Virus record (IMG/VR): IMGVR_UViG_3300028800_000179
Span: 1-40,629 of that record
Direction: 5' to 3' (one strand)
Length of the DNA: 40,629 nt
DNA from: a virus
Below, piece after piece: positions 14,055 through 37,817 of this stretch. The notes under the pieces were generated by a model, which was given only the letters and a program-made list of their open reading frames with translations, had not been told where the DNA came from and searched no databases. Position 1 is the stretch's first letter, and every line of letters starts with the position of its first letter. Both the position numbers and the translations under genes were made by a program.

Positions 14055-14681
14055 ATGAAAGACTGCTTAGCAGCTAAGGCACCGAGCGCTGGTCGCCGTC
14101 ATGGGCGTAACCGTAGCGGAGGGTTCGGTCCCCAATGTCTTGAGTTGCGTGGTGCGGGCGCCTGTTTTTTTGTCCTGATGATTTTTTTGATGGCGATGTT
14201 GTGCGGCTGCAGCACGGCGCCGCTTACGCACGGGATCCCGAATTTTTCGCAGGTCGATCCGCGGGTATACCGGGGCGGCCAACCGACACCGGAAGGCTGG
14301 GCTTGGCTTAAATCTCAAGGAGTGCTTTACGATCTCAAACTAGACACGGAAGGCGAAGGTTCGGATGCACTGGCCAAAAGCAATGGCCTACACGTGATCC
14401 CGCTGCCGATCACTTTATTCCAGCAGACCTTGGGTCAGCCGCCGACGGACGAAATAGATTGTGCCGTTTCCACGATTGAGCTTGGCACCGAGGAATTTTC
14501 TGGCGGCGGTGTTTTCGTACACTGCCAGCACGGGCAGGACCGTACTGGCCTGATGATTGGCATTTACCGGGTCAGATGCGATCACTGGACCAAGGCGCAA
14601 GCGTGGGCTGAAATGATGGCGCACGGATTCCACCCGCTGCTGCGGGGACTGTGCTGGTCCTGGGAGGAGGACGTGCCGTGA
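14055..14681 (+). CDS. tyrosine/dual-specificity phosphatase-like lipoprotein (208 aa)
   Basis: The phosphatase loop is VHCQHGQDRTGLMIG, a complete HCX5R with Cys157 as nucleophile and Arg163 binding phosphate. NFSQVDPRVYRGGQPTPEGW is the N-terminal pattern of this superfamily, where it precedes the beta-alpha core. A hydrophobic stretch FFVLMIFLMAMLCGC gives a lipobox, so the enzyme is probably anchored outside the cytoplasm. The first 30 residues look unlike protein; the true start may be TTG 14145 or ATG 14178. It overlaps the lipase gene by GTGA. Exported members of the family can act on proteins, lipids or inositol phosphates. Confidence 0.75.
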   Translation: MKDCLAAKAPSAGRRHGRNRSGGFGPQCLELRGAGACFFVLMIFLMAMLCGCSTAPLTHGIPNFSQVDPRVYRGGQPTPEGWAWLKSQGVLYDLKLDTEGEGSDALAKSNGLHVIPLPITLFQQTLGQPPTDEIDCAVSTIELGTEEFSGGGVFVHCQHGQDRTGLMIGIYRVRCDHWTKAQAWAEMMAHGFHPLLRGLCWSWEEDVP

Positions 14682-15445
14682 TTTCGGAAACGCTCAATCC
14701 GGATGCCAAGAGCTTCACCTGGCCAAATGCCAGAGCGTGTTTGGATTGGTGTGCGGAAGCCTACGGCGGCCCGGCGACGTTGGCCTCCTCGCTGACCGGT
14801 GCGCAGATGATCGTGCGCGAGTTGTCCGATCACATCGTGGTGGCGTTTCGGGGCAGCGAGAGCGCCGAGGACTATCAACAGGACGCAAAATTTGAGTTTA
14901 CCGACCTGATTATTCCGCCCGACGGCACGCCGGCCAAGGTGCACAAGGGTTTCCTGGAGGACTTCGACAGCCTGAACGATCAGTTGATCCAGTATGTAAA
15001 AGGTCTTTCCACCAAACCGATTTTCATCACCGGCCATTCGCTCGGCGGCGGACAGGCAATTCTTTGCGGACTGGAATTTCTGCGGGTGGGTTTCCGGCTG
15101 GCGGGGATCTACACGTTCGGGCAGCCGCGCGTGGGCAACGGCATCTTTGCGCGCTGCTACGACATCGCCAGCTGGGGAATGATCGGCGCGCTGCGCGACA
15201 TCACCTGGCGCGTGGTCAACGAGAACGACATCGTGGCGCGCCTGCCGGGCGCGCTGCTGGGTTACCGGCATTGCGGGAACGAAATCTTTCTCCCGGTCGA
15301 AGGCGGTTACTGGGTCAACCCACCGGCTTGGCGCCGGGGCTGGAGCAATCTGCTGGGCTTTTTATCGGCATGGCGGCATGGCGGCGACGTGCTGATCACC
15401 GAGCATCATCTGTTGGACTACCAGGAAAGGATGGCCGGCCTGTAA
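14678..15445 (+). CDS. class 3 lipase, alpha/beta hydrolase (255 aa)
   Basis: The nucleophile elbow is ITGHSLGGGQA with Ser121. Asp184 in NENDIVARLPG and His243 or His244 in ITEHHLLDYQ complete a class 3 lipase triad. HIVVAFRGSES is the strand carrying the oxyanion-side motif of the family. It starts at GTG in the GTGA overlap with the phosphatase gene. I see no signal peptide, so it would act inside the cell or leave after holin-type membrane damage. In a phage lysis region it may attack membrane lipid or lipoprotein, which is inferred. Confidence 0.82.
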   Translation: MISETLNPDAKSFTWPNARACLDWCAEAYGGPATLASSLTGAQMIVRELSDHIVVAFRGSESAEDYQQDAKFEFTDLIIPPDGTPAKVHKGFLEDFDSLNDQLIQYVKGLSTKPIFITGHSLGGGQAILCGLEFLRVGFRLAGIYTFGQPRVGNGIFARCYDIASWGMIGALRDITWRVVNENDIVARLPGALLGYRHCGNEIFLPVEGGYWVNPPAWRRGWSNLLGFLSAWRHGGDVLITEHHLLDYQERMAGL

Positions 15446-23108: not shown

Positions 23109-24062
23109 ATGGCAGAATCAAGAATCGCCCAGTTGGCCGGCAGTCCGCTGCTCACCAACTTCGCAATCACCGTTAGCCAGCGGGCCATCCGGCCCGTTGG
23201 CCAGTTCATCGCGCCTCTTTGCGAGGTGCCCGACCTCAACTTCCGGTACAAAAAGTACACGGACAAAAACCGGTACCGCGTGCCGGACACCAAACGGCAG
23301 CCCGGCGGCAAGGTGACGCGCCTGGGCTTCACCGCCGATGATATGGCCGCGACGCTGGAGACGAACGCATTGGACTTCCCGATTCCGAACATCGAGGGAT
23401 TGTCCGATGAGCAGCTCGGCTTCTCGATCATGGAAGGCCAGGGCATCATTGCCGATTCAGCGGCCCTCGCGCTGGAGAATGAAATCGTGACAGTCGCGCA
23501 GACGGCGGCGCTGGCGTCGGCGCTGACGCAGGCTGTGGACTTCACCGACGACACAGTAGATCCGATCGCGTTGCTCGACAACCTCATCCTCTCCGTGCTC
23601 AAGGCGGCGAAGAACGGCGCGCCGGTGAAAATCCTCTTCGGGACCACGAAGTTCAAACAGTTCCGCAACAACAAAAACGTCAAGAGCCGCTACATCGTGG
23701 CGGCCGGCGGCGGTGCGGGCGGCAAATCGAGCCTGGGCACGGTATCGCCGACCATCGAGGACGTGGGCGGATTGCTCATGACCTCGCCGGAAGTGCAGCT
23801 CTCGATGATGGTCATCGATCAGGCGGCGCCGGGCGTGGCGGAGAACATCCAGTTCCTGCTGGACACGGTGGTAATTGTGTTCGCCTCCAATGGGACACCG
23901 AACCGGATGGACCCGTCCTTCATGAAGACGTTCGCCCGCATGGGCGGTTTCTTCAAGCCGGGCAATTACATGACGGAAGATCAGCGCGACCAGGTGCTCA
24001 AGATGGACTGGACCACGCTGCCGTCCGTCACGAATTCCGCCGCTGTTGGCGCGTTGAAATAA
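23109..24062 (+). CDS. major capsid protein (317 aa)
   Basis: The place after protease/scaffold and decoration genes, and the sequence layout, fit E-type coat proteins of the HK97 fold used by Mu-like siphophages: FIAPLCEVPDLNFRYKKY, then a long alpha region with ALALENEIVTVAQTAALASA, NLILSVLKAAKNG, and a C-terminal FARMGGFFKPGNYMTEDQRD. The leader is CA-rich (AACCATCAACCAAAACAAAT) with no Shine-Dalgarno. A strong UUCG hairpin follows the stop. Confidence 0.82.
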   Translation: MAESRIAQLAGSPLLTNFAITVSQRAIRPVGQFIAPLCEVPDLNFRYKKYTDKNRYRVPDTKRQPGGKVTRLGFTADDMAATLETNALDFPIPNIEGLSDEQLGFSIMEGQGIIADSAALALENEIVTVAQTAALASALTQAVDFTDDTVDPIALLDNLILSVLKAAKNGAPVKILFGTTKFKQFRNNKNVKSRYIVAAGGGAGGKSSLGTVSPTIEDVGGLLMTSPEVQLSMMVIDQAAPGVAENIQFLLDTVVIVFASNGTPNRMDPSFMKTFARMGGFFKPGNYMTEDQRDQVLKMDWTTLPSVTNSAAVGALK

Positions 24063-24068
24063 TCATGT

Positions 24069-24121: not shown

Positions 24122-24598
24122 ATGAACTTCTTAAAACAAATTCTGGCAGTCATCTGCCTGCTCATCGGCCTGTTACTGATCGCGCTTCCGGCGCGCGCGG
24201 ACCAGCAGGGCGCCGCTCAAACATTCCTCAGCCCGACCAACATGCCGGCCATCATCACCGGCGGCGCAAACAGCAACGCCTTGAACAGCGTCATTGTTTT
24301 GCGCAAAGGCCAGGGCCTGGGATTGCAATGGCTGTTCAACGGCTCCGCCAGCACCAACACCGCCAATGGTGTCATGCTGCTCACCCCGAGCATCGATGGA
24401 ACCAATTACGACACCACATCGTGGGTCTTCTCGCGCCCGGCGATCGGGACCGGGACGACGGTGGCCACCACTAATTGGTCACCGCTGGCGCTGGCCGGTT
24501 ATTACTCGATAGAAATCACGGCCATGACCAACGCCAACCTTGGCGCGGTTTCGACCCTCACCAATCAGGGAGTCTTGTTTAATCGTCCGAATCTTTAA
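24122..24598 (+). CDS. exported protein of the virion operon (158 aa)
   Basis: MNFLKQILAVICLLIGLLLI, then ALPARA-D, is a Sec signal peptide. The mature part is rich in Asn, Thr and Gly (NMPAIITGGANSNALNSVIV, TNTANGVMLLTPSIDGTNYD) and looks all-beta. It sits between the major capsid and the gp36-like gene, where an exported product is not expected. GC hairpins flank the gene on both sides. No family is recognised; it could be a host-surface or late-acting envelope protein. Confidence 0.65.
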   Translation: MNFLKQILAVICLLIGLLLIALPARADQQGAAQTFLSPTNMPAIITGGANSNALNSVIVLRKGQGLGLQWLFNGSASTNTANGVMLLTPSIDGTNYDTTSWVFSRPAIGTGTTVATTNWSPLALAGYYSIEITAMTNANLGAVSTLTNQGVLFNRPNL

Positions 24599-24607
24599 AT
24601 CGAAGCA

Positions 24608-24633
24608 GGAGGGGGCGCCGAAGCGCCCCCTCC
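24608..24633 (+). other. GC-rich hairpin before the gp36-like gene
   Basis: GGAGGGGGCGC (24608-24618), loop CGAA, GCGCCCCCTCC (24623-24633): eleven perfect pairs. It also sequesters the only G-rich stretch near the next start, and no T-run follows. Together with the hairpin at 24069 it isolates the exported-protein gene in the mRNA. Confidence 0.75.
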
Positions 24634-24643
24634 GCCAATAAAA

Positions 24644-25087
24644 ATGTCCAACTGGATCACCATCGTAAAACTGGATCTGTACAACGCCAAGGCCGCGGTC
24701 CTGGTGGATGCGGCGGACAATGTGCAGCTGGGCGTGGGCCAGGCTTCGCGCAGCGCGCAGGTGATCGCGGATGTGACGACGGAGATTCGGCGCAAAATCG
24801 CCCGCGTCACAACGCTTGACCAGGACGTGACGAAGATTCCCGGCGGTCTTAAAAGCGCGGCGGTGGACATCATTGTTGCGCGGCTCAAAATTTCACTGGA
24901 ACAGGAACTCAGCCAGGACGAGCGCGACACGCTAAAGCGGCGTACCCAGGAGATCAACGACGTGCGTGACGGCAAGGATTTTGTTGACCCACCGGACAAT
25001 CCCGCGACGGAAACATTTGAACAGGCGCAGCCGGCGCCGTCGTTTGGCGATACCCCGTGCCGCCGGAAGAACCGGGAGAACGGCTGA
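24644..25087 (+). CDS. DUF1320 / Mu gp36-like head-completion protein (147 aa)
   Basis: The helical layout (VADVTTEIRRKIARVTTLD-type segment, then LKSAAVDIIVARLKISLEQE and TLKRRTQEINDVRDG) matches gp36 proteins, which adapt the portal to the tail. Position after capsid and before tail-completion genes agrees. The start follows CCAATAAAA without a Shine-Dalgarno site. Confidence 0.7.
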   Translation: MSNWITIVKLDLYNAKAAVLVDAADNVQLGVGQASRSAQVIADVTTEIRRKIARVTTLDQDVTKIPGGLKSAAVDIIVARLKISLEQELSQDERDTLKRRTQEINDVRDGKDFVDPPDNPATETFEQAQPAPSFGDTPCRRKNRENG

Positions 25088-25088
25088 T

Positions 25089-25877
25089 ATGTCAAACGCT
25101 GCCGACATTCTCCTCGATAAAAAGGTGATGCCGACCTGGCTCACGACGGATGACCTGCGCCAGATCGACGCCACGGTCCGGTCCCAATCCTTTTTCAGTG
25201 CGCAAACCATGCTCAATGATTTACTGGAAAAATATAAAGACCGCATCGGTGGCATTCTGAATCCGGTCCCGGCCGCTGGAGAGGCGACGACGCAGTTCAG
25301 TCCGGCTTACGTGCGCCAGGACATTAAACAATTTCTCCAGGAGATTGGCTACGCGCCGGCGCCCGAAGACGCCGGCACGCTCAAGGACCTCTCCAGCGAC
25401 GCGCGCATCAACCTGGTGATCAAGATGAATACGGAGCTGGCCCAGGGCCAGGGGCTTTGGATCGCCAACCAGAACCCGGTGATCCTCGACCAGTGGCCCG
25501 GCCAGGAATTGTTCCGGGCCGAAGGACGCAAGGTGCCGCGCGATTGGATTGATCGCTGGCGCCTGGCCGGCGCGCAGACCGGCGACCCGATCGGCACCGG
25601 CTGGACCATCGCCGGCGACCTGATGATTGCACTCAAGAACCATGACATCTGGAACTGGATCGGCTCCTCCGATTTGTTTGACGATGCGCTCGATGTGATC
25701 TGGCCGCCGTTCGCGTTCAATTCCGGGATGTGGGTGCGCGACGTGGACCGCGCCGAAACCGAGGCCATCGGTTTGCTCGATAAGGGCGAAGCGGCGCCCC
25801 AGCCGATGAGTATCGCCGACGCGCTGGCGGCGTTTGTGAAAAAGATTTCGGCGTTCGCCAAGGAGGTGGAGGCATGA
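25089..25877 (+). CDS. conserved phage head/tail-joining region protein (262 aa)
   Basis: The motif series VPRDWIDRWRLAG, MIALKNHDIWNWIG, then WPPFAFNSGMWVRDVDRAE is one I associate with a conserved protein of Mu-like phages near head-morphogenesis genes. The N-terminal third resembles short head-protein helices (DATVRSQSFFSAQTMLNDLL). A structural or minor head role is likely, but no biochemical function is known to me. It ends in an ATGA overlap. Confidence 0.6.
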   Translation: MSNAADILLDKKVMPTWLTTDDLRQIDATVRSQSFFSAQTMLNDLLEKYKDRIGGILNPVPAAGEATTQFSPAYVRQDIKQFLQEIGYAPAPEDAGTLKDLSSDARINLVIKMNTELAQGQGLWIANQNPVILDQWPGQELFRAEGRKVPRDWIDRWRLAGAQTGDPIGTGWTIAGDLMIALKNHDIWNWIGSSDLFDDALDVIWPPFAFNSGMWVRDVDRAETEAIGLLDKGEAAPQPMSIADALAAFVKKISAFAKEVEA

Positions 25878-26530
25878 GCGTGCTCAACGTCACCGTCAAT
25901 ACACAGCGCCTGGGCGAACTTGAACGTCAGGCGCTGGAGCTGGGCCAGAGCGTGCCGGCGCAGCTCGTCGCCGGCCGGGCCGCGGCGAATTATGTGCGTG
26001 ATTATCTTTTTGATCTCGATGCCGAACGCGCCAACCGGATGGGCGGCGAACGCACGCACTTCTATAGCCGGGCGGCCAAGTCGCTGACTGAACCCAAACC
26101 GGACGACGTCGGCGTCTCGTTTCTGATCACCCAGACCGGTTTTGCGCAGCGTCTGTACGGCGGCGTCATCACGGCCGGCAAAGGCGTTTCCAGCCGGACC
26201 GGCGAGCTGACCAAATACCTGGCATTGGCGGCCACGTCGGAAGCCTACGGCAAAACGCCCGGTGAATTCGACGACCTTGAATTCCGGCCAACACGCAACG
26301 GCGGGATGCTGGTGCAAGCGTTGCAGACCCAGATTGTGCGCGGCAAAAAACAGAAGGACGGCAGTCGTGATTTTTCAACCATCGCGGCCGGCGGCCTGGT
26401 GATGTTCTGGCTGGTACCCGAAGTCACGCAGGAAGCCGATCCGACCGTGCTGCCCTCCAATGAAACGATCGCCACCGCCGCCGCGGATGCCGAGGCGGGA
26501 TTCCTGGCACGTCATTTTGGATCCAACTAA
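25874..26530 (+). CDS. virion morphogenesis / tail-completion protein (218 aa)
   Basis: RAAANYVRDYLFDLDAERAN followed by ERTHFYSRAAKSLTEPKPDD is the layout of phage virion-morphogenesis or neck proteins, in which a helix with paired charges precedes a beta sandwich with FLITQTGFAQRLYGGVI. Position between gp36-like and gp37-like genes supports a neck or tail-completion role. Confidence 0.55.
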   Translation: MSVLNVTVNTQRLGELERQALELGQSVPAQLVAGRAAANYVRDYLFDLDAERANRMGGERTHFYSRAAKSLTEPKPDDVGVSFLITQTGFAQRLYGGVITAGKGVSSRTGELTKYLALAATSEAYGKTPGEFDDLEFRPTRNGGMLVQALQTQIVRGKKQKDGSRDFSTIAAGGLVMFWLVPEVTQEADPTVLPSNETIATAAADAEAGFLARHFGSN

Positions 26531-26532
26531 CG

Positions 26533-27018
26533 ATGCCCAACCTGCAAACATTTGATGATCTGACCAACGGCGTGAACGCGCGCGTGAATCAGGTGCTCGC
26601 CGCGATGCAGTTGGCCATTCCCGCGGGCAACTGGAATCAGATCGGCGTGCTTGTCCAGGATGCGCACGACGTCACCACCGAAATTGAAACGGCGATTCTA
26701 AAAATCGGCATGCTGATCATGATCAACATGCCTTCGTTCCGGAACCAGAACCTGCTGGCCACCCAGATCAACGCGAAGATTTCGTTCATCGTCGAGGTGG
26801 GTGAAAAACCCATCACCTGGCGTAACAATCCGCTGACGCTGCCGACCGCCAAGACCGTGGCGCAGACGATCGCGCGCGGGCTCCAGGGATTTAACGTAAC
26901 CGGATTTGAACCGCTGCGCGTCGTGGACGGCGAGTTCATCAACCTGAGCAAGGACAAACGCCAGGTCTATTCCATCCACGTGGAGACGCAGCAAATATTC
27001 GCACCACCACCTGTTTAA
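26533..27018 (+). CDS. DUF1834 / Mu gp37-like tail terminator protein (161 aa)
   Basis: This is a small alpha/beta protein with MLIMINMPSFRNQNLLATQI and INAKISFIVEVGEKP, then TVAQTIARGLQGFNVTGFEP and YSIHVETQQIF at the end, matching the general form of tail terminators that cap the tube at the neck. Mu places gp37 in the same slot. The family assignment is moderate. Confidence 0.6.
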   Translation: MPNLQTFDDLTNGVNARVNQVLAAMQLAIPAGNWNQIGVLVQDAHDVTTEIETAILKIGMLIMINMPSFRNQNLLATQINAKISFIVEVGEKPITWRNNPLTLPTAKTVAQTIARGLQGFNVTGFEPLRVVDGEFINLSKDKRQVYSIHVETQQIFAPPPV

Positions 27019-27048
27019 ACCGACAAAAACCAATAACCAAAAAACATC

Positions 27049-27612
27049 ATGCCCAATCCATTCATTGAAGAAGAAAAGGCGCTAGGGGCGCTCGTATCGT
27101 TTTTCCCCGAAGGCGCGGCGGTCGCCGCCGGCGGCGTGTGCAGCGCCGCAGCGATCCCCAATCCCAACGATCCGGGCTGGGTCCAGCTTTCCCGCGTGGA
27201 ATCCTGGGAACCCAAGCGCATGGACGTCAAATACCAGAAGGTCAAGGACAGCGCCATCGGGCGGCTGTTCCTGGCCAACGAAGTCGAGACCGACGGCTTT
27301 ATGGAATACAACTTCACCGTCAGCATCCTGCGCGGGCTGCTCGTGGGCATCTTTTTCCGCTCACAAAACTTACTGGGCAACGTCCAGCAACAGTTCGTGC
27401 CGGAACTGGGCATCGCGCCCCGCGGCTGGATCATCATGGTCAACAAGGACCAGGCGGGCACCATCGTGCTGGCCTGCAACCTTTGGGGCCGCATGAAATG
27501 CGATTCCTTCGGCAAAGGCGGCGGCGGCGAGCTGATCAAGCCGGCGCTGGTGTTCACCGATTACGAAAACGCCCTGAAGACCATCTTCCTGGGCAACATC
27601 CTCAATCCTTAA
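27049..27612 (+). CDS. tail tube protein (187 aa)
   Basis: Beta-rich sequence with WVQLSRVESWEPKRMDVKYQ, EVETDGFMEYNFTVSILRGL and a C-terminal ALVFTDYENALKTIFLGN fits a major tail tube subunit of a siphovirus. There is no sheath gene beside it, which implies a non-contractile tail. The leader CCAATAACCAAAAAACATC is of the CA-rich type seen before other abundant virion genes. Confidence 0.6.
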   Translation: MPNPFIEEEKALGALVSFFPEGAAVAAGGVCSAAAIPNPNDPGWVQLSRVESWEPKRMDVKYQKVKDSAIGRLFLANEVETDGFMEYNFTVSILRGLLVGIFFRSQNLLGNVQQQFVPELGIAPRGWIIMVNKDQAGTIVLACNLWGRMKCDSFGKGGGGELIKPALVFTDYENALKTIFLGNILNP

Positions 27613-27648
27613 CCGGCGCTGTCATTGGCCTGAAACGAAAGCCTTTTT

Positions 27649-27852
27649 ATGAGCGACAAACCGAACACGACACCGCCCGTCATCCCCGACATCCATAAGC
27701 CGCCGGTGGCAGCGCCAAAGGTGCTGCTGCCGGTCATTCCCGATGCGGCAAAACTGTCGCCCGGCGGCCGCATTGTAACCAGCGCCGACCAGGTGCCCAT
27801 GCCGGATGCCTTTAAAGAAGCGCCGCCGGCGCCCAAGCCTGCGGACGAATAA
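27649..27852 (+). CDS. small proline-rich protein (67 aa)
   Basis: The sequence is mostly Pro, Ala, Val and Lys (TTPPVIPDIHKPPVAAPKVL) and likely disordered. It could be a linker or an assembly cofactor of the tube. No family is recognised. Confidence 0.45.
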   Translation: MSDKPNTTPPVIPDIHKPPVAAPKVLLPVIPDAAKLSPGGRIVTSADQVPMPDAFKEAPPAPKPADE

Positions 27853-27887
27853 ACGAACTCCAGCCAACCCATTAAATAATCAAGACC

Positions 27888-30323
27888 ATGAAAAAAATTC
27901 TTCTTCAAGCCGCGCTGCTGTTGTTGAGCAGCCTCCCCATGCTGGGCCAGACCACGAACTTACCGGTGATCAGCACCAACGCCGCGTCGGGCAACCCAAC
28001 CAATCCGCCGGTGACGGCTGTATACGGCGCCGTCTTTTTAGCCGGCACGAACGCGCCCAACGGCCTGATCTGTGCCGCGACCGGTTCGTTCTACAATCAG
28101 TTCGATCAGACGTGGACGAATCTGTTGGCGACCTGGGTCAAGGGACAGGGCGTATGCACGAGCAACTGGATCACCCTTACGAACGGCACCGGGCTGTCTT
28201 ATGTTCCACCTTCTCCGGGACAGGTCACCAACGCTGCCGCTGCGGTGTCCCAGACGATGACGCCCACCAATCAGATCAGTAAAACATTTTACGTTTCATC
28301 GACCAACAGCCAGACGTACATGGGCACCGCGCAAATCTTCGGGCAAGGCACGTTGACGCAGCCCTTTTATGGAGACTTCGATGCCATCGTCAATTCCCAG
28401 CCGGCGTGGTCCACGGGCAATCTCCTGCCCACTGGAACTAATGCGCCATTTTGGACTTTGGGCAACGGCGGATTTTCGAGCAATCTTGTGCTTAAGACCG
28501 GTATGGTTTTAGGTGGGTACAACGGGGCGCAAGTGGTCATCAAACGTTCGCCGACCTATGCTTCGACGGAATCTTTGTTCGGCAGTGGAAATTTCATCAC
28601 GCTCAGAAATATAATCATTGACGGGTCGATGACCAATGGAGTGACCGGGAAAGTTGTGTATGGTGCCGTCCTCAATGGGTCTTACGAAAAAGCGGAACAT
28701 TGCGTTGTGATCAACTGGTGTGGGGATTCTTCCGTGGGTGAATCATGGGGATTTTATCTTGGCGCGCAAGCCGGGACGGCCAGCCCTGAAATATCCGATT
28801 GCACGGTGTCGAACTGTTGGGGGAATTATGACGATTGCTATGAGGCCGATGGCTCGGCCTACATCCACGACAATTTCTATACGTTGCCCGTTTTGACGAG
28901 CAATCTGCACATGGTGGGAGTGAATTTTGCCTACGGAGTTAATGAACGGATTGTGAACAATACCGGATCGGGTGGACGAGACTTTGCCTACGCAGACACT
29001 GGGGGAGCAACCAATGTAACGTTCGTGGGAAATTACGGGTTGAATGTAGCCTCCGGCGTTTACGTTCATTTCGGCGGGCCGGCCGTGGGGTGGACCATGC
29101 AGGGCTTGAAAGTCCAAGGGAATACGTTCACCGAAAACACCAATTACTGGGTCAGCTCGCGGGGTATGGTGCTGTTGGATTCCCGTGAAACAAACGTTGC
29201 CTGGAACGGCTTTTTAATATCAGGAAATGTCATGGGGTACGCGTGTCCCGGTGAACCAACGACACAAATTGATCCGAACCAGTGTTCCGTGCTCGTGTAC
29301 GACGAGAGCAATTCCAACGGGCTTTTGAATGGGATTTCGGTTTTGGGAAACACCATCGACAGTCATTTCCCGATCAGCCTGGCGAACTACACCGGCCTGC
29401 AATGGATCGACAATTTTGACCAGAACGGCAATGGCTATTCCAACATTCTCACCAGTCTTGCCCCGCTGGAATTTCAGCGTGAGTCTCAAAACCTGAACGG
29501 TCCCGCCAACCCGCAAAATCCGTTGAATGCCGGCCTCGTGCTTGACCTGTCATTCATCGAGGGCACCGGCACGAACGTTTACAATTACGCATCGTCCTAC
29601 GCCATCACAAATCTGAACTTTACGCCCGTCTGTTCAATGGTGGGTGGCGCGTACCTGTGGAGCACGGGGCAGGTTGGTTACGCCCTGTCAATGACCAACA
29701 ACATATTGGGCGTGGGGGCCGGATCCTTCGCCACATTCACCAACTGTTTGAGCTATTCGTTTGGCACTTCATTGCAGGGTTATTCCAACATGACGGTTGA
29801 AGTTGATGTCAAGCAACCGGCTTTTGTCGGTGGTGCTTACGACATCCCCTTGAGTCTTCAGCAGCTTGCTTCATCGAACTGTTTTCAGTTGCATTTTACG
29901 GCGACGCAGACCGGCTTCAACTTTTGCAGTGGTACGACCAATGAGGCGTATTATTTCGGGACCAGCTACGCAGACGGCAACCCGCATCAGTTGATGGCGG
30001 TATACGCCGGTACGAGCGTAACCTTGTACGTTGATGGCGTTGCCGTTGGTTCGCAAGCGGCGACGGGAATTGTATTTCCAGCGGCCAACGGGGCGGTGAG
30101 TGGTTACTTTGCCGCGAGCCGACTTAATGGATTCGTTTCCAAGGCAGCGGTGTGGACGAGAGCACTATCACCAAGCGAGGTGTTACTGTCTTACCGGAAA
30201 TTCAGGCCGCCTGACATTGGCACCACCTATTACCTGATTTACATGCCGACGAATACGTCGGGAACGCATGGGTTGTCAGGATATCTCACCAACGGCGTGG
30301 TCATTTCCACCGGAACCTACTGA
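27888..30323 (+). CDS. large exported beta-helix protein with C-terminal LamG-like domain (811 aa)
   Basis: MKKILLQAALLLLSSLPMLG-Q is a Sec signal peptide. Residues about 120-480 look like a right-handed parallel beta-helix (FITLRNIIIDGSMTNGVTGK, SPEISDCTVSNCWGN-type rungs, NGISVLGNTIDSHFPISL). Residues about 600-790 form a LamG/concanavalin-type sandwich (HQLMAVYAGTSVTLYVDGVA; LNGFVSKAAVWTRALSPSEV). These folds are common in carbohydrate-binding adhesins and tail depolymerases. A signal peptide on a tail fibre would be odd, because virions assemble in the cytoplasm, so a host-surface adhesin is the alternative. Confidence 0.7.
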   Translation: MKKILLQAALLLLSSLPMLGQTTNLPVISTNAASGNPTNPPVTAVYGAVFLAGTNAPNGLICAATGSFYNQFDQTWTNLLATWVKGQGVCTSNWITLTNGTGLSYVPPSPGQVTNAAAAVSQTMTPTNQISKTFYVSSTNSQTYMGTAQIFGQGTLTQPFYGDFDAIVNSQPAWSTGNLLPTGTNAPFWTLGNGGFSSNLVLKTGMVLGGYNGAQVVIKRSPTYASTESLFGSGNFITLRNIIIDGSMTNGVTGKVVYGAVLNGSYEKAEHCVVINWCGDSSVGESWGFYLGAQAGTASPEISDCTVSNCWGNYDDCYEADGSAYIHDNFYTLPVLTSNLHMVGVNFAYGVNERIVNNTGSGGRDFAYADTGGATNVTFVGNYGLNVASGVYVHFGGPAVGWTMQGLKVQGNTFTENTNYWVSSRGMVLLDSRETNVAWNGFLISGNVMGYACPGEPTTQIDPNQCSVLVYDESNSNGLLNGISVLGNTIDSHFPISLANYTGLQWIDNFDQNGNGYSNILTSLAPLEFQRESQNLNGPANPQNPLNAGLVLDLSFIEGTGTNVYNYASSYAITNLNFTPVCSMVGGAYLWSTGQVGYALSMTNNILGVGAGSFATFTNCLSYSFGTSLQGYSNMTVEVDVKQPAFVGGAYDIPLSLQQLASSNCFQLHFTATQTGFNFCSGTTNEAYYFGTSYADGNPHQLMAVYAGTSVTLYVDGVAVGSQAATGIVFPAANGAVSGYFAASRLNGFVSKAAVWTRALSPSEVLLSYRKFRPPDIGTTYYLIYMPTNTSGTHGLSGYLTNGVVISTGTY

Positions 30324-30328
30324 ACGCC

Positions 30329-31030
30329 ATGATCCAGGTGTTGATCATTGCATTGTCGCTGCTGGCCCTGCAACTGCAGGGCCAGCAGCTCTACACCAAC
30401 CAGGTGGACGTCACGACCACGGTCACGGATTATTATTACAACGCCGCGCTGTTGCCGCTCGGTTTCTCGCCGGCGACGTGGGCCTGGATGCCGACGAGCC
30501 CGTCGGCAACCCTCACCTCAGATCAGCTCGGATTGATCGGAACACTGAATCTCACCAACTACGGCAACTCGACGGTGGCTTTCGTCATTCACCTGTCGTC
30601 CCTGGGCATCGGCAGCAACGGGCTGGTGGTGACGCAATTCTGGCCTGACCCGATAAGTGGATTGTGGATCACCAACGTGACGGCGATCCCGATTTACAAG
30701 ACCGGCTGGAAACTGTTTGCCACCGACGGCCGCACTAACCTGGTTTGCGCAGTCCTGACGAACCTGACCAATCCGCAGTGGACGTTGGTGACCAACTCCA
30801 ATCCGACATGGGGCACATTCACCGGGACCGCACAATTCTTTGACCTGCGAACCAACGGCATCAGCCTGCAGGTTTACCGGACAGACACGCTGCCGGCGAC
30901 CGTGGTCGCCTACACCACAAACATCGTCACGACCAATCCACCCGCGGCCATGGCCGTGCCGATGCCGCCAGGTGTAATGGCTGTGCCAACGTCTCCTGCA
31001 CCTCGGAAATTACCGAGGCACCTATCATGA
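30329..31030 (+). CDS. exported Asn/Thr-rich protein (233 aa)
   Basis: MIQVLIIALSLLALQLQG forms a signal-like hydrophobic start. The mature region is beta-rich (LGLIGTLNLTNYGNSTVAFV, VVTQFWPDPISGLWITNVTA), ending in a proline-rich tail. It follows the LamG protein by five bases and overlaps the zinc-finger gene by ATGA, so it is in the same operon. No family is recognised. Confidence 0.6.
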   Translation: MIQVLIIALSLLALQLQGQQLYTNQVDVTTTVTDYYYNAALLPLGFSPATWAWMPTSPSATLTSDQLGLIGTLNLTNYGNSTVAFVIHLSSLGIGSNGLVVTQFWPDPISGLWITNVTAIPIYKTGWKLFATDGRTNLVCAVLTNLTNPQWTLVTNSNPTWGTFTGTAQFFDLRTNGISLQVYRTDTLPATVVAYTTNIVTTNPPAAMAVPMPPGVMAVPTSPAPRKLPRHLS

Positions 31031-31674
31031 CCGCCGCCCTCCAACGCTCCGGTCGGCGTGTGCGCCATTATCGCGTGGACGCGGCCATCGGCACCCTGCT
31101 GGCGCAGCTCGGGCTGGATTACAGCACGCGAAACTTTTGGACCGATAACAGCTTCATCCTGGAGGAGATTCTGCACGATGCTTTTGTGGCCTACCGGGAC
31201 CGGATCATCCGTGTCCAGCCCAGGGCAGCCGGTGACTCGGAAACGGAGGCGACGGCGCTCAATGCGCTATGGTCGGAAATTAAACGCCGTTTTGAACAGC
31301 ACCTGCGCCCGCATTTATTTTCCAGGATGCCGCAAATGCAGCGGATCAATCGTGGCACTTCGTTGCGCTGTTGTGGTTTCCGGCTTTGCGGCAAGCCGTT
31401 TGAGACGGTTCGCCCCGACAAGAGATTTTGCACGGACCAGCACCGCAACGCCGAGCGCATCCGCCGCTACTGGGACCGCCAAAAACTTTATCGGGTCAGC
31501 GCCTGGCGTGTGTGCGCCAATGAGCACTGCACCAATGGCTCCGGCGGCGGCAGGAAAAGATTCCGCACCACGTACCCGTGGAAAAAATTCTGCACTGGCC
31601 AATGCCAGCTCCGGGCCAAATGGAAGCGGGCGACGGCCCGGCGCCGCGCTACTGTCACCCACCAACACGCATAA
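31027..31674 (+). CDS. protein with two cysteine zinc-knuckle motifs (215 aa)
   Basis: Two similar cysteine motifs are visible: CGFRLCGKPFETVRPDKRFC followed by TDQHRNAERIRRYWDRQK, and VCANEHC later with YPWKKFCTGQCQLRAKWK. They resemble CGNR-type zinc fingers, where F-C-x-x-x-C/H is followed by a basic helix that can contact DNA or RNA. An N-terminal helical domain of about 100 residues precedes them. It is a strange neighbour for tail genes; a regulatory or assembly role is open. Confidence 0.6.
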   Translation: MTAALQRSGRRVRHYRVDAAIGTLLAQLGLDYSTRNFWTDNSFILEEILHDAFVAYRDRIIRVQPRAAGDSETEATALNALWSEIKRRFEQHLRPHLFSRMPQMQRINRGTSLRCCGFRLCGKPFETVRPDKRFCTDQHRNAERIRRYWDRQKLYRVSAWRVCANEHCTNGSGGGRKRFRTTYPWKKFCTGQCQLRAKWKRATARRRATVTHQHA

Positions 31675-31679
31675 AACTT

Positions 31680-32066
31680 ATGGATCACAAAACCATCCGA
31701 CTAAACGGCGGCCTGCTCGTCAACGTGACGATGGCCGACAACAGCATCGTGGAAATCAAGGTCCGGCAACTGCCGACGGGCGAATGGGACAAGGCCATCG
31801 GTCTGTTCACCAACGAACGCGCCCTGGTCGCCCTGATCTGCGGCCAGCCGCCGGAATGGATCAACACTGTGGCACCGGAGAGTTACGGGGAGCTTTACAA
31901 GGTGGCACGGGAGGTGAATGAGCTCGGTTTTTTCGACTTTGCCTCCCGGCAGTTAAAAGCGGGCCAGGAGGAGATCGAACGACTGGTCAAGCTGGGCGTG
32001 CCGCTGGAAAAGATCATCGAGGCCGGAAAGCGATCCATCTCGCTTGCTGGATCGAGAGCTGCGTAA
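31680..32066 (+). CDS. tail assembly chaperone, gpG-like (128 aa)
   Basis: It is a soluble protein (TIRLNGGLLVNVTMADNSIV, later GELYKVAREVNELGFFDFAS) lying just upstream of the tape measure, the position of the G/GT chaperones that coat the tape measure during tail assembly. The 3' end carries a slippery-type sequence, and the following open frame is in -1 register. The assignment rests on position, size and the frameshift arrangement. Confidence 0.6.
   Translation: MDHKTIRLNGGLLVNVTMADNSIVEIKVRQLPTGEWDKAIGLFTNERALVALICGQPPEWINTVAPESYGELYKVAREVNELGFFDFASRQLKAGQEEIERLVKLGVPLEKIIEAGKRSISLAGSRAA
32024..32054 (+). promoter_or_regulatory. candidate programmed -1 frameshift site
   Basis: The heptamer C GGA AAG (32024-32030) in the frame of the gene at 31680 differs in one base from the lambda G/T slippery site G GGA AAG. 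It is followed at once by CGATCCA (32031-32037) pairing with TGGATCG (32048-32054), and an alternative AAGCGA/TCGCTT hairpin. The -1 frame is open through the site and ends at 32266. Confidence 0.55.
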
Positions 32067-32095
32067 TCGACGCGGGCTGCTCGCGCGCCGAGGCG

Positions 32096-32266
32096 ATGGC
32101 CATGAGCTGGGAACAGCTCGATGCATTGGCCCGCGCCGGCCGGGCCCGGATGGCCACCAACATCCTGCAGATCGTCCGGGGCATCCGGGCGGGTTATTCC
32201 GACACCGGCGATTACGGCGACTGGCAGGCCAACATGCGAAGGGAAATGGAACTGACCGATGAGTGA
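32096..32266 (+). CDS. -1 frame tail chaperone extension, gpT-like (56 aa if initiated separately)
   Basis: The frame encodes MSWEQLDALARAGRARMATN and a tail with YSDTGDYGDWQANMRREMEL, a helical, charged sequence as found in T extensions. It is in -1 register to the gene at 31680 and stays open upstream past 32030, so ribosomal slippage there would give a fusion of about 195 residues. Internal ATGs at 32096 and 32102 would allow separate initiation. It overlaps the tape-measure start by eight bases. Confidence 0.55.
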   Translation: MAMSWEQLDALARAGRARMATNILQIVRGIRAGYSDTGDYGDWQANMRREMELTDE

Positions 32267-34808
32267 GCCGGTAAAAATTGTCATCACAGCGCAGACGGCC
32301 GAGGCGGCGGCCGCCATCCGGCAGTTCGCGGTGTCGGCCGGCGCCGACATCGGCGGGGTGGCAGGTGCCGCGGCCGCGCCCAACCTGGCTCTGCGTCAGT
32401 TGCGCGAAACCTCGATGCTGACGCGCGAAGGTTTCATGGGATTGCAGAGCACGGCGTTGCTCCTGGGTGGTACGCATTTCCCCCAACTTACCTATGGGGT
32501 GATGGGACTCACCGAAGGCATGCGCGCCCTGCGCGGCACCGCATTGTTGAGCAAATTATCTTTGGGCGAGCTCGTCCCGATTATCGCCGGCATCGGCCTG
32601 GTGCTGGCGGGTGTGGTGGTCGCCTGGGACGCATTTTCCAACAGCGAGATCACCGCCAAAAAGCGGACGGAAGACCTGGCCGGCGCGCTGGAAAAGCTGC
32701 CCGACCTTTTAAAGAACATTTCTGATGCGGCGCAAACGGGTTTTCTGTCTCCGGAAAAGGCCGAGCAATTGCGGAAGATGGCCAGCGGTGAAACGCCGCT
32801 TTATTACCCGCGAACGCCAGCGGGAATGAAACCAGGTTCACCCTATTATTCAAAAGATCCGGATGGCGGTAAGGATAAAATATTCACCGGGGACCTGACC
32901 ACTGAAGCCAGTTTCCGCAATCGCTCCGGGATGGTGATTCAAAACGAGCCCGCCTTGCAGAAGGACAAAGACGCCTATCTTCAACGGCAGGCATTCGGGG
33001 GGACTGGGGACGATGCCAAGCTCGATGCCGCGCAGCAGAAGATCGCCCTGGCGCGCATAGCCGCGCAAAAGGAATTGGACGATCTGATGAGGACGTCCTC
33101 GCAGGAACAGATGGGCGCGTTCGACAAAGAGCGGTCCCAGGAGGATGAACGTTACGGCAAGGAACTAGCCCATTTCAAGGAGGTGGCCGCCCAACGCCGC
33201 GCTGGCATCACCGACCAGCAACAACTGGCCGCCATCACCCAGCAGCTCGACCAGGATCAGCAGACGCTTGACAACGGCCATCTGGCCCGTCTGGACGCGA
33301 TTGATCAGAAGCAGAATAAAAGTAATGCGGAGGCGCAGAACAAACTGAAAGAACGGGCTGCCCAGGCATTCACGAAGGCCAACACTGACCTGGAGACACA
33401 AATCACCACCGAGGCGGAAGCGGCCGGCAAAAAGCGCGAGGAATACTACCAGGAGGAATACGCCGAGCGCACGCAGTTGGCGGAGATTTTCTACCGGACT
33501 GGCGCCATCAGTGAGCAGCAATACAACGAAGCTGTTGCCAAGGCGCAGCAGGATTTCTATGCCGGGCGAAATGCGATGGAGGAGGAAGGGGTGCGTAAAT
33601 CCCAGGCCGACCAGGAAAACCGTCGCGCAGACATCGAGGCGCAGATCGCGGCGATCCAGTCTGACCAACTCCTGACGCGGTTGCAAAAGGAACAGGAGGA
33701 ACTGGTGCTCAAACAACAGTTGCTACAACTGGATCAGCAGCGCCTGGCCATCATCCAGCAGCGCGTGGCCACCACGGGTGATGATCAAGTTAGAGCGACC
33801 TACGAAAAGGAAATCGAGGAGCTCAAGAAACAGATCGCAGTCTTACAAAATCAAATCCCGGCCGGCCAGCGCAGCATGAGTGTTGGTGGCAACGTGCAGG
33901 ATCAGTGGACACAAATCCAGGGGCGCCTGGGCAGCCCACAGGAGAACGCCGCCAATGTCATCACGTCCCCGTTTGCGCAGCTTGATACGAGCCTGGACAA
34001 GGCGCTGAGTGACATGATGATCAAGGGCACTTCGTTCAGGCAATTCTGGCAGAGCATCAGCTTGGGGATGGCTGAGGATTTCGCTCGGTCGGTGGCCAAG
34101 ATGGCGGCCGACGAGGCTACGAGCCTGGCGATGCAGGCGGCGCAATGGATCGCGCACAACGTGTTCAAGGTGGCCATTCACACGGCCGGGGAACAGGCGC
34201 AGACGGCCGTGACCGCCCAGGGGTCGGTTGAGCGTGGCGCGGTGCGCGTGGCCGAAACGCTTTTCCACATCGGCCAGGTTGCTTTGCGGACGGCCGCACA
34301 CGTCGCCGGGGAAATTCTTCAAACCTCCATGACGATTGCCCAATCAGCGATCCGGGTGGCCACCATCCTGGCTGAGGCGATTCCTTATCTGATCAAGGCC
34401 GCAATCATGGCCATGGACGCCATGGCGGATATTCCAATTGTAGGACCGGTCCTGGCGATTGCGGCTGCCGGCGCCATCATCGCGGCCGGCGCCGGGCTGA
34501 TGTCGCGCGATTCCGGTGGACCGGGCGAGCCGGGCCAGGTCTATCACATTGGCCGGGGCGCGCAGGACGAGATTTTCGTACCGCATAACGCGGGCACATT
34601 TTATCCAAAGGGCCAGTGGTCCGCGAACCAGGCAGTTGCGCCGGGCGGCGGCGGCGGCGCCTCTTCGCCGGACGTCAAGGTGGATCACTTCGTCGTTTAC
34701 AACGACCAGCAGCTTTACGAGAAAATGAAAAGTTCGACGGCGAAAAAAATCTTCGTCACCCATCTCAGCGATCCGGGCATAAAAACGCAGGCGGGCATCC
34801 AGACATGA
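32259..34808 (+). CDS. tape measure protein (849 aa)
   Basis: It is a very long protein with an early membrane segment (LVPIIAGIGLVLAGVVVAW, about residues 107-126), a central run of coiled coil (residues about 230-540, e.g. LLTRLQKEQEELVLKQQLLQ) and a hydrophobic C-terminal region (IPIVGPVLAIAAAGAIIAAG). This order is typical of siphovirus tape measures, which set tail length and are later ejected into the cell envelope. Using the usual 1.5 angstrom per residue, a tail of about 125 nm is expected. It overlaps the chaperone frame and the next gene. Confidence 0.82.
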   Translation: MSEPVKIVITAQTAEAAAAIRQFAVSAGADIGGVAGAAAAPNLALRQLRETSMLTREGFMGLQSTALLLGGTHFPQLTYGVMGLTEGMRALRGTALLSKLSLGELVPIIAGIGLVLAGVVVAWDAFSNSEITAKKRTEDLAGALEKLPDLLKNISDAAQTGFLSPEKAEQLRKMASGETPLYYPRTPAGMKPGSPYYSKDPDGGKDKIFTGDLTTEASFRNRSGMVIQNEPALQKDKDAYLQRQAFGGTGDDAKLDAAQQKIALARIAAQKELDDLMRTSSQEQMGAFDKERSQEDERYGKELAHFKEVAAQRRAGITDQQQLAAITQQLDQDQQTLDNGHLARLDAIDQKQNKSNAEAQNKLKERAAQAFTKANTDLETQITTEAEAAGKKREEYYQEEYAERTQLAEIFYRTGAISEQQYNEAVAKAQQDFYAGRNAMEEEGVRKSQADQENRRADIEAQIAAIQSDQLLTRLQKEQEELVLKQQLLQLDQQRLAIIQQRVATTGDDQVRATYEKEIEELKKQIAVLQNQIPAGQRSMSVGGNVQDQWTQIQGRLGSPQENAANVITSPFAQLDTSLDKALSDMMIKGTSFRQFWQSISLGMAEDFARSVAKMAADEATSLAMQAAQWIAHNVFKVAIHTAGEQAQTAVTAQGSVERGAVRVAETLFHIGQVALRTAAHVAGEILQTSMTIAQSAIRVATILAEAIPYLIKAAIMAMDAMADIPIVGPVLAIAAAGAIIAAGAGLMSRDSGGPGEPGQVYHIGRGAQDEIFVPHNAGTFYPKGQWSANQAVAPGGGGGASSPDVKVDHFVVYNDQQLYEKMKSSTAKKIFVTHLSDPGIKTQAGIQT

Positions 34809-35455
34809 TTGCCATCAACGGTTACACCCTTTTCCCGCACCCGGCCGACTGGTCCACCCAGCCGGACAATGTGGAGGATTGGCAGAGCGGGATTGGCACC
34901 GGTGTCCTGGGCAATGAACAGCGCGCGGGCCTTCGCGATCTCCCGCTGGAATCCCTGACCTTTATCATCACCGCACAATCGCTGCAGGAGCGCTGCCGCC
35001 TCGATGCACGGCTGGACCAGGCGCTCAAATCCGGGTTGGCCTGCATTCCTTACTTTGGCATGGGCAGCGCGCTGGCTGCACCGGTCAATGCCGGTGCCAA
35101 TGCTGTCGGTATCCAGGACGCGGTCAATCCCTGGCCGTGGGCCGCTGGCGATTACGCGATCATCGTGGGCGCCGATGACACGGTTTACGATGTGCTGCCG
35201 GTGACGGTCGTTGCCGGCAACACCCTGCAATTCGGCGCGGGCGCGCTCAATTACGGGTGGGTTAGAAAAATAGTGCGGCCGCTGCTCTTCGGCAAAATCT
35301 CAACGGAAAAGCAAACCGTCCTGACCAACTGGCATACGCCGGTAAAACTCACAGTCAAACAACAGGTCAACCCGCGCAGCGCGCAGATTGGCATCACGCC
35401 GCCGCTGGTTCCGGGCGTTGGTCAACAAATCGTCGGGAAAACGAATCAATTATGA
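34805..35455 (+). CDS. tail-tip protein downstream of the tape measure (216 aa)
   Basis: The N-terminus (INGYTLFPHPADWSTQPDNV, then GLRDLPLESLTFIITAQSLQ) reads like a beta-rich distal-tail domain, and the last third (TVLTNWHTPVKLTVKQQVNP) is also beta. It follows the tape measure by an ATGA overlap, the position of distal tail proteins in the D3112/B3 type of tail. The ATGA at 35452 couples it to the exported protein gene. Confidence 0.55.
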   Translation: MIAINGYTLFPHPADWSTQPDNVEDWQSGIGTGVLGNEQRAGLRDLPLESLTFIITAQSLQERCRLDARLDQALKSGLACIPYFGMGSALAAPVNAGANAVGIQDAVNPWPWAAGDYAIIVGADDTVYDVLPVTVVAGNTLQFGAGALNYGWVRKIVRPLLFGKISTEKQTVLTNWHTPVKLTVKQQVNPRSAQIGITPPLVPGVGQQIVGKTNQL

Positions 35456-36354
35456 AAACGAAAATCGCACTCATCCTGGCAGTTCTGATTTCAGCCTTCA
35501 GCTTTCAGCCTTCAGCCCTGGCTTCAGGTTACGCCCTTTCCAACGACCTGCAGGCGTCGTTCACGCTCTTTTACTGGACTAACAGTGGTGCCGGTAACGT
35601 GTTCAGCCTGATCACCAACACGCCGCCAGGCAACAATTATGTTGTGAGCATTCCCACCAATGGTCCAGCCGGCCTGGGACTGCAACCAACGAACGCGACG
35701 ATGTTCATCCTGGTGCCGTGGACGAACATGCCCTACGCCAGCAACAACGTCAGCTCCTTCTTCACGAACGCGCTCGCCGCCATTGCCCCCGCAAGCGAGA
35801 CGGTACCGCAATGGCAGATGATTTTAAAATCCTATTTCGTCACCGGAGCGATCCCCAACCAGGCGAACTATTGGGAGTTGATTGACACCATTTTTTACTA
35901 CGTGAACGCCATGTATCTGAATTCGGTTTCCGCACAATCGAATGCGCAGTACATCGTCACCATCACGCAGCAGCGTGCATATATTGAGGGTAATTGCATG
36001 ACTCCGGGTGGTGGCTCGACTTCATTCTCACATACGAATTCTTTCGCGTTTGGGTGCTTTGATATAACCACGAACTCACCATACAATTTCAGTTCCCCAC
36101 CACCTGGTTATCAAGGCTACCCAAGTATGACTGTACAGTTCACGATTCCCTTTGCCGATACGAACTACATTGTGCAGGGGTTTTGGGACGGAGTTGAAGT
36201 AGCGACGACGAATTTAACGGGTGGTTTTCCGAACATGTCTTTGACGCTTTCTTCGAGGCCATTTGTTACCGCTCGTACCACCACAAATTGCATCTTGGCG
36301 TTTGGTGCGCTTGACGGTAATTGGCACAACTATTATTTCATTTTCACCCACTGA
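35452..36354 (+). CDS. exported Asn/Thr-rich protein in the tail-tip block (300 aa)
   Basis: MKTKIALILAVLISAFSFQP then SALA-S is a Sec signal peptide, partly encoded by a heptamer repeat. The mature protein is beta-type and rich in Asn, Thr and Phe (GNNYVVSIPTNGPAGLGLQP, later PSMTVQFTIPFADTNYIVQG). It interrupts the tail-tip genes and is coupled to both neighbours (ATGA, TGATG), so it is made together with them. No family is recognised. Confidence 0.65.
   Translation: MKTKIALILAVLISAFSFQPSALASGYALSNDLQASFTLFYWTNSGAGNVFSLITNTPPGNNYVVSIPTNGPAGLGLQPTNATMFILVPWTNMPYASNNVSSFFTNALAAIAPASETVPQWQMILKSYFVTGAIPNQANYWELIDTIFYYVNAMYLNSVSAQSNAQYIVTITQQRAYIEGNCMTPGGGSTSFSHTNSFAFGCFDITTNSPYNFSSPPPGYQGYPSMTVQFTIPFADTNYIVQGFWDGVEVATTNLTGGFPNMSLTLSSRPFVTARTTTNCILAFGALDGNWHNYYFIFTH
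35489..35516 (+). repeat. four tandem heptamers (T/C)TTCAGC
   Basis: TTTCAGC, CTTCAGC, TTTCAGC, CTTCAGC stand directly in tandem, giving an exact 14-base period. They encode part of the hydrophobic core of the signal peptide (ISAFSFQPSA). Confidence 0.85.
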
Positions 36355-37817
36355 TGAATTACCTGGGTCAACCAGTCTTTCCGTTCACGCCGAACTGGCG
36401 CGACGCCATCAGTCGCGGCATACAGTTCGAGCTCCGACCGGAGGACGTGGGCTACGGCCAGGAATATTTCACACCCACCCAGAGCTGGACAGTCAATCAA
36501 TGGCAACTCAGCGTGGAGCTGCCCACGCCGTCCGACATCGTCGCTTTCAAAGCGTTCGTGGCCGGCCAGGTTGGGCCACTGAAAGGATTCTGGCTGCCCA
36601 TGCCGCTCGCTGCCGCCCAAATAACGGCCGGCGCATCCACGAGCGTCTTTAGCATTGCGGCGGAGGGATTGAGCACCTTTTGGCAGGATCGGCCTGATAC
36701 CACCCTCTTTTTCACTTTCCATGATGGGACGCAGGCAGCGGCACAAATCCAATCCGTGGTGCCGGCTGGCGCCACCGAGACGGTCACCCTGACGGCACCG
36801 TTACCTCAGATACCGGACGCCGGAACGTCGATACAAAAACTGCAGTTCGTCCGGTTCGCCGGCGACAAGCAGCCCTCCAAATTTGTCGCGGAGGGTTATC
36901 AAATCCGGAACATCACATTGATTGAGCTGCCCCTGGAATACGCGGTGCCGTTGGTGGGGTTGCGGCCCATTTTCCTGTTTCATTTTTGGGGCGCAGCGCC
37001 GGTCAATACCCACTGGTATTACACATCATTCGCCTCCCCGGTGGCCAGCGCGGGCCGCATCTATGCCAATTTCCCGGTTGATTTTTCCGACCTGGAGGAC
37101 GCGCACGATGGCACGTCCACGCCTTTGAAGCTGACGGCGAAACCTGATGCGACGTCGCCACTATCGCTATTCCTGCCGGTCCCATTCAGTGGCATCCTTT
37201 ACTGTGAGATTTTCTGTGTGGATTATACGGCGCCGGACGTGCAAACACTAATGTTTAGCGGGCGCGTGGTGAGCGTGGAGGATGGGGGATCGAAATTGAC
37301 GCCGACCTGCGAGTCGCGCCTGGCATATCTGAAACGCAAAATCCTGCGCGCCCTCAAGGGACTGACCTGTGGCAATATTTACTGCGATCCGAAGACGTGC
37401 AAGATCGGCCGAGCGAACGAGCAGACGACGGTGAACATTGTGGCCATCAATGCCGGCCCGCCAATGACCATCGTATGCTCGTTCGCTTTTCCCGCCCTGG
37501 CTGCCAAGTTTCAGGCGTTAAACTTTTTTGCCCAGGGCCTTTTTGAATCCGGGCTCGGGCTCAATTACGAGGCGCGCACCATTCTCGCCTCGACGTGGAA
37601 TGCGGGCACACAACAATTGACGCTCACTTTGAATCTGGCGCTCCAAAAGACGCAACCAGGCGCGCAGGCAGAAGTGACGGATGGCTGCGATCATCAACCC
37701 AGCACTTGCATCGCCAAGAATAATTATCAGCACTTTTTTGGACTGCCCTTTGTGCCGCCGCGTAATCCGACCCTGAAGGGCATCAACGCCAACCCCGTGT
37801 CGCAGGGAGGTAAATGA
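36354..37817 (+). CDS. tail protein with BR0599/DUF2163-type C-terminal domain (487 aa)
   Basis: The C-terminal half carries the family signature: CGNIYCDPKTCKIG, a stretch with FFAQGLFESGLGLNYEARTI, then VTDGCDHQPSTCIAKNNYQH and FFGLPFVPPRNP, with the paired cysteines of BR0599-type proteins. The N-terminal part (GIQFELRPEDVGYGQEYFTP, TPSDIVAFKAFVAGQVGPLK) is a separate beta domain like other tail-tip N-domains, so it appears to be a fusion of two usually separate tip proteins. It starts at TGATG after the exported protein. Confidence 0.75.
   Translation: MNYLGQPVFPFTPNWRDAISRGIQFELRPEDVGYGQEYFTPTQSWTVNQWQLSVELPTPSDIVAFKAFVAGQVGPLKGFWLPMPLAAAQITAGASTSVFSIAAEGLSTFWQDRPDTTLFFTFHDGTQAAAQIQSVVPAGATETVTLTAPLPQIPDAGTSIQKLQFVRFAGDKQPSKFVAEGYQIRNITLIELPLEYAVPLVGLRPIFLFHFWGAAPVNTHWYYTSFASPVASAGRIYANFPVDFSDLEDAHDGTSTPLKLTAKPDATSPLSLFLPVPFSGILYCEIFCVDYTAPDVQTLMFSGRVVSVEDGGSKLTPTCESRLAYLKRKILRALKGLTCGNIYCDPKTCKIGRANEQTTVNIVAINAGPPMTIVCSFAFPALAAKFQALNFFAQGLFESGLGLNYEARTILASTWNAGTQQLTLTLNLALQKTQPGAQAEVTDGCDHQPSTCIAKNNYQHFFGLPFVPPRNPTLKGINANPVSQGGK

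Follow-up and report, generated by a model that had tools for sequence, protein, structure and literature searches.

The window analysed here is the whole of a virus record of 40,629 bases, which encodes a Mu-type portal, a Mu-like protease and a protein with a MuB C-terminal domain, as well as a long-tail module with a probable tube protein, a tape measure protein and tip proteins carrying BR0599 and Rcc01698-like domains. Taken together, these genes point to a Mu-like siphovirus, probably with a transposable lifestyle. Its capsid protein shares 73-90% identity with counterparts in six other, related viral contigs and 44-77% with those of eight bacterial genome contigs, mostly titled Verrucomicrobia or a subgroup thereof, which suggests a host among the Verrucomicrobiota. 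Ahead of the virion genes, an array of 9-base repeats (ACAGCCTCG/CCAGACTCG) lies at 8108-8287, at the end of the gene 7579-8355. Upstream of the terminase, two further proteins are predicted to be exported (13437-14021 and 14178-14681) and are possibly lysis or conversion genes; one has a Sec signal and relatives in L002 and L010, while the other has a lipobox (LCGC). The lipoprotein gene is adjoined by a class 3 lipase (14678-15445; Pfam, 87.7 bits), which is unusual for a phage lysis region.

Table 1. Late genes of the window considered in the text, in map order (↓, predicted cut site).
Feature	Position	Strand	Remarks
Major capsid protein	23109..24062	+	Weak Pfam Phage_cap_E match; neighbour of SP1
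SP1, decoration-like	24122..24598	+	Signal peptide 24122-24199 (ARA↓DQ) and single predicted beta-sandwich domain; directly behind capsid gene
Probable tail tube protein	27049..27612	+	By position; upstream of SP2; homologs in L004, L002, L010
SP2, fibre-like	27888..30323	+	Signal peptide 27888-27950 (LGQ↓TT); between tube and tape measure
SP3, Thr-rich	30329..31030	+	Probable signal peptide ~30329-30385; between SP2 and the 31027 gene
Tape measure protein	32259..34808	+	By length and position; downstream of SP3; homologs in L004, L010
First tail-tip gene	34805..35455	+	By position, residues 1-186 of the single tip gene of relatives
SP4, Asn/Thr/Ser-rich	35452..36354	+	Signal peptide 35452-35523 (ALA↓SG); between two tail-tip genes
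Second tail-tip gene	36321..37817	+	BR0599 and Gp84-N (Pfam), PHROG 778 and 1082; downstream of SP4

A signal scorer run on all genes from the small terminase gene through to the last of the late block flagged exactly four, and the same four were flagged after a second, independent gene-calling pass. The scorer is a rule set of our own, not SignalP, and the control statistics depend on it; it was positive for OmpA, MalE and PhoA and negative for LacZ and RecA. The scores were 7.75 for SP1, 7.68 for SP4, 5.61 for SP2 and 5.38 for SP3, whose cut site is uncertain. The n, h and c regions and the small-x-small cut site are clear in SP1 and SP4, fair in SP2 and weak in SP3, the signal of the last being devoid of any basic residue. 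As judged from their leaders, all four are predicted to fit the pattern of Sec signal-peptidase I substrates. Moreover, their mature parts are composed of 28-32% Asn, Thr and Ser, compared with a mean of 15.6% and a maximum of 20.5% in the other late proteins, and of only 5-8% charged residues, compared with at least 12.9%. The sequence-only reading had described four signal-bearing, Asn/Thr-rich proteins starting at these positions, set after the capsid gene, between the tube and tape measure genes (two of them) and within the tail-tip block, with coupled starts from 30329 to 31027 and at 35452. This description was confirmed throughout, SP3 being the weakest case and the couplings consisting of 4-base overlaps, at 31027-31030 between SP3 and the following gene and at 35452-35455 between the first tail-tip gene and SP4. 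Promoter- and terminator-like matches occur at about shuffle level, and a separate side-fibre gene lacking a signal was not seen in the late block of the window. On these grounds of sequence the export of the four proteins is well supported, while their destination is something we infer.

The occurrence of such signals by chance was assessed in several ways. None of 2000 whole-protein shuffles reached the real score of SP1 or SP4, while 11 reached that of SP2 and 50 that of SP3; shuffling the first 60 residues only was less favourable to SP2, whose score was reached by 104 of 2000. Spurious open reading frames passed the scorer in 2 of 108 cases. Among the structural-region genes of six annotated control phages (P8625, lambda, Maribacter phage Molly_5, crAss001, B40-8 and Flavobacterium phage lillamy9-3), 3/123 scored, namely lambda Lom and a small gene in each of P8625 and B40-8. 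A set of 30 fibre or tail proteins, taken from 14 control phages, gave no scoring member. With 3/123 taken as the false-positive rate, at least four signals among 23 late genes would be expected with p ~0.002. A chance origin was therefore rejected on the basis of shuffles, spurious open reading frames and composition. Among genes of 100 aa or more located behind the capsid gene, 44 of 168 scored in the clade of the window, a few of these calls being alternative-start false positives (for example a 220-aa gene of L003 and a 172-aa gene of L004), compared with 2 of 48 in the distant verrucomicrobial prophages L015 and L078-L084. Conserved head genes scored in 2 of 82 cases, both capsid genes with a hydrophobic N-terminal extension. 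An artefact of a single contig was rejected, since the relatives agree, and so was a general trait of verrucomicrobial phages, since P8625 and L078-L084 are mostly without signals.

An export segment is present in the gene that immediately follows the capsid gene, both in the window (where an alternative in-frame ATG for SP1 lies at 24065) and in L002, L003, L004, L006, L007, L008, L010 and L011, L005 being identical to L006 at this locus; an SP1-type gene is missing from this place in L009 and L012-L014. Position, export segment and the start of the mature part are conserved in this nine-member family. The mature part usually begins with (A)D-x-Q-G-Y-P, directly after an AxA-like site, and the hydrophobic segment that ends in this site is kept across the family despite swaps of the leader, which may be of the ordinary Sec type, prepilin-like or fused to a cytosolic domain. 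A leader that changes in type but keeps its export segment is the outcome expected under selection for export. The leader of L004 resembles host prepilins, retaining the GF of the prepilin motif (G↓FxxxE) with Gln in the position of Glu, and the motif is absent from the leader of SP1 in the window; the family profile also matched host prepilin N-termini in many genomes. When 384 genomes were searched with the SP1 family, strong matches were confined to the two known capsid loci and the remainder were mostly leader-only prepilin matches, and no relatives of SP1 and the capsid protein were found among 50,697 phage records. The family has diverged to 35-41% identity while the capsids retain ~75%, and can be considered fast-evolving. 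The AlphaFold2 model of SP1, of modest confidence (pLDDT 66), consists of a helix at residues 3-21, corresponding to the signal, followed by strands arranged as a beta sandwich. Matches of SP1 to minor-tail and fibre domains of phages are weak (best E 2e-4). Foldseek against the PDB returned nothing below 1e-3, with tail-spike, carbohydrate-binding-module and viral beta folds at 0.005-0.04, so the claim on its fold is limited to a beta sandwich.

The capsid genes next to this family show a peculiarity of their own in two relatives. At L004 9851-10936 and L011 2150-3256 no start codon is found where the capsid frame would normally begin, and the frame continues upstream into an N-terminal extension of ~50 aa with hydrophobic segments, which an internal ATG could avoid in L011, there being none in L004; this may reflect a capsid precursor attached to the membrane, or else an assembly error. 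These extensions make a membrane attachment of head proteins conceivable, and they are one of the reasons for weighing a first alternative, namely that the hydrophobic N-termini are uncleaved anchors rather than export signals. They would attach to the membrane or to parts of the virion while it is assembled, and the proteins would stay in the inner membrane or on its cytoplasmic face. In addition, 85-100 residues precede the hydrophobic segment of the SP1-family protein in L003 and L006, with no other ATG, GTG or TTG before the segment in L006 and with a front part in L003 that matches the small phage families phrog_2616 and phrog_829. Nevertheless, AxA-like cut sites stand immediately before the conserved mature start of the SP1 family, the leaders possess ordinary n, h and c regions, and fibre domains would make little sense on an anchor facing the cytoplasm, all of which renders this alternative improbable.

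The largest of the four, SP2, comprises a segment of the type GSxYxQFD..WVK (residues ~40-115), a beta-helix-like middle part (~123-529) and a LamG domain (660-765), and stretches homologous to it were found in L002/L047 and L004; a search of viral contigs confirmed no SP2 relatives. The LamG domain previously proposed for this product is recovered well above the Pfam cut-off (40.8 bits against 27.6), while the beta-helix proposed together with it is plausible from the sequence, its fold being unconfirmed by an AlphaFold2 model built from four sequences, which reached a pLDDT of 34 and was not used further. Places comparable to that of SP3 are occupied in L004, L010 and L003 by signal-bearing genes of 163-172 aa, with no sequence similarity detected. 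Between SP3 and the tape measure gene lies 31027-31674, which encodes a Cys- and Arg-rich protein of 215 aa with CxxxxC-type motifs and no family match above cut-off in Pfam or PHROG.

The same arrangement recurs in the relatives, since L004 and L010 have signal-bearing genes in the interval from tube to tape measure, such genes flank the tube gene on both sides in L002, and three of them stand in a row before the next large gene in L003. Many of the signal-bearing genes near the tail, both in relatives and in more distant verrucomicrobial prophages, are recognisable fibres. One in L004 carries the foldon of T4 fibritin (PF07921, 23.9 bits, cut-off 21) and shares the GSxYxQFD..WVK segment with SP2 of the window; another, in L069, is a collagen-stem fibre (phrog_5073, 1e-22); and a third, in L072, has a tail-spike-like part after its phage tail repeats (phrog_35419, 6e-25). 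When 388 Verrucomicrobiota genomes were queried with the tail-repeat fibre, two matched, too few for a comparison within one family. Given the foldon, collagen and tail-repeat domains of the relatives, surface proteins unconnected with the virion are less likely than exported fibre and decoration proteins.

SP4 stands apart from the others. The tail-tip protein is encoded by a single gene of 670-677 aa in L046, L049 and L052, none of which has a counterpart of SP4, and by two genes around SP4 in the window; the second of these, starting at TTG 36321 or ATG 36354, aligns to residues 186-676 of the L049 tip gene, and the first has no significant similarity on its own. It had been suggested that the same insertions should be looked for in related phages, and the signals do recur through the lineage, but an insertion specific to one phage fits only SP4. 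This bears on a second alternative, in which the four genes would be host-derived cargo (morons), that is, verrucomicrobial exported adhesins caught between virion genes and with no role in making the virion. The lack of an SP4 counterpart in relatives is in line with it, as are the composition and LamG domain, which resemble those of host surface proteins, and the prepilin-like leader of L004. However, divergent phages use the same slots, there are 4-base overlaps with virion genes, promoter-like matches are close to the level of shuffles, and the strong matches of the SP1 family in the 384 genomes searched are limited to the two known capsid loci, so that cargo of this kind is the least probable of the explanations weighed here.

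Further evidence is provided by capsid cassettes of other Verrucomicrobiota, in which a linked pair of decoration-like genes, DecA and DecB, follows the capsid gene; the pair is compared with SP1 in place and signal, not as proven homologs. Both proteins score for signals in ~15 loci. In genome G092, signals are absent from both in 4/4 copies, and the start of the proteins coincides with that of the mature part in the other loci; this signal-less state is one evolutionary event. The existence of DecA and DecB without a signal shows that the mature parts can do their work without being exported, as would be expected of virion parts more than of factors at the cell surface. Regarding the cassettes themselves, those of L056-L063, L066, L068 and L070 (genomes G092, G150, G288, G040, G239, G023 and G174) comprise a Mu-like portal, protease, capsid and gp36-like genes; exported proteins are present in them, four copies lie in G092, and tape measure and tail genes are not evident. 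Such cassettes could be satellites, remnants or gene-transfer elements.

The signal-less pair also weighs against the main rival, according to which exported fibre-like proteins are no virion parts but remain on or around the infected cell and, with their fibre domains reused, block reinfection as receptor decoys or aggregate cells. Export signals above chance, adhesin-type domains (LamG, fn3 and collagen) and the precedent of lambda Lom, a known exported late-region protein which lies among tail genes and scores here, would all agree with such a role. Nevertheless, DecA and DecB without signals would be useless as surface factors, and many different fibre families occupy fixed places beside capsid and tube genes. 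Nor is there any match in the exported proteins to C-terminal sorting signals (PEP-CTERM-type or other) or to a lipobox that would hold them on the surface, a lipobox ending in Cys, the criterion for lipoprotein superinfection exclusion, being absent from all four leaders. A coat or decoy against reinfection is considered less probable than a place on the virion, and is the strongest of the alternatives.

The explanation preferred, to which a probability of roughly 45% is given, is that SP1 as a capsid decoration, and SP2 and probably SP3 and SP4 as fibre-like proteins, are made together with the virion, exported by Sec and joined to virions outside the cytoplasm. It draws on the signals and the fibre domains that follow them, on the retention of the signals in relatives and on the gene order with its overlaps, all of which can be read in the sequence. 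Cleavage, export in the real host and docking on virions are what we infer from them. The signal peptide would bring each chain into the periplasm via Sec, where signal peptidase I would remove the leader and the beta-rich chain would fold, some relatives trimerising by a foldon or a collagen stem; the folded protein would then dock on its virion neighbour, capsid or tail, at the membrane or, more probably, when lysis mixes periplasm and cytoplasm. Tailed phages normally build their fibres and capsid decorations inside the cell. Nevertheless, fibres or spikes can be added to finished particles in extracts, as is classical for T4 and P22, which makes docking at lysis reasonable. No tailed phage is known to us in which passage of the fibres through Sec has been proven.

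The sequence-only reading had seen in these genes late surface proteins made at the same time as virions; the Sec signals on late genes overlapping virion genes agree with this, although the separateness of the proteins from the virion has become less likely. Of the functions it had offered, a meeting with virions after lysis is now favoured, as members of the group in relatives are recognisable fibres, and coating of the host ranks lower. It is also proposed, with somewhat more reserve than the reading of the four genes, that one lineage of tailed phages completes its virions outside the cytoplasm, its fibres and capsid decorations passing through Sec, maturing in the periplasm and docking at the membrane or at lysis. 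If so, the assembly of tailed phages would gain an extracytoplasmic step, and annotation may call such genes host cargo. For hypervariable proteins, the absence of a signal peptide has been used in support of their coming from phages and not from bacteria (PMC6199706), a rule that would fail for this lineage if its fibres are exported throughout. If the proteins are decoys instead, they would make up a modular system for controlling reinfection.

In the open-licence literature searched, where an earlier report may have been missed, no account was found of signal peptides as a regular feature of phage fibres or structural proteins, and to this extent the feature is, as had been supposed, undescribed. 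One or two signal peptides have been reported in Bacteroides rumen phages (PMC5723332). What is new is the export signal that precedes the domains, these being already known. With the fibres and spikes of tailed phages the proteins share domains and gene positions in relatives, as well as the fibre-type segment, LamG and beta-helix-like middle of SP2, whereas the known ones are produced in the cytoplasm and lack signal peptides (0/30 tested score). Verrucomicrobia phage P8625 (KP792622) is a cultured siphovirus of a related host which also has a tail fibre and a LamG protein, but neither scores here, and the analysis of its authors found a signal peptide in no protein (PMC4642752). SP1, being small, fast-evolving, placed beside the capsid gene and predicted to be a beta sandwich, is comparable to the capsid decoration proteins of tailed phages by position and a low-confidence model, and differs from them in its Sec signal; the usual place of a decoration protein, just before the capsid gene, is occupied by gene 22609. 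Finally, lambda Lom is likewise encoded among late tail genes and bears a Sec signal (PMC12309495), but it is a single outer-membrane barrel, whereas the window encodes several fibre-like or predicted beta-sandwich proteins beside its capsid and tube genes.
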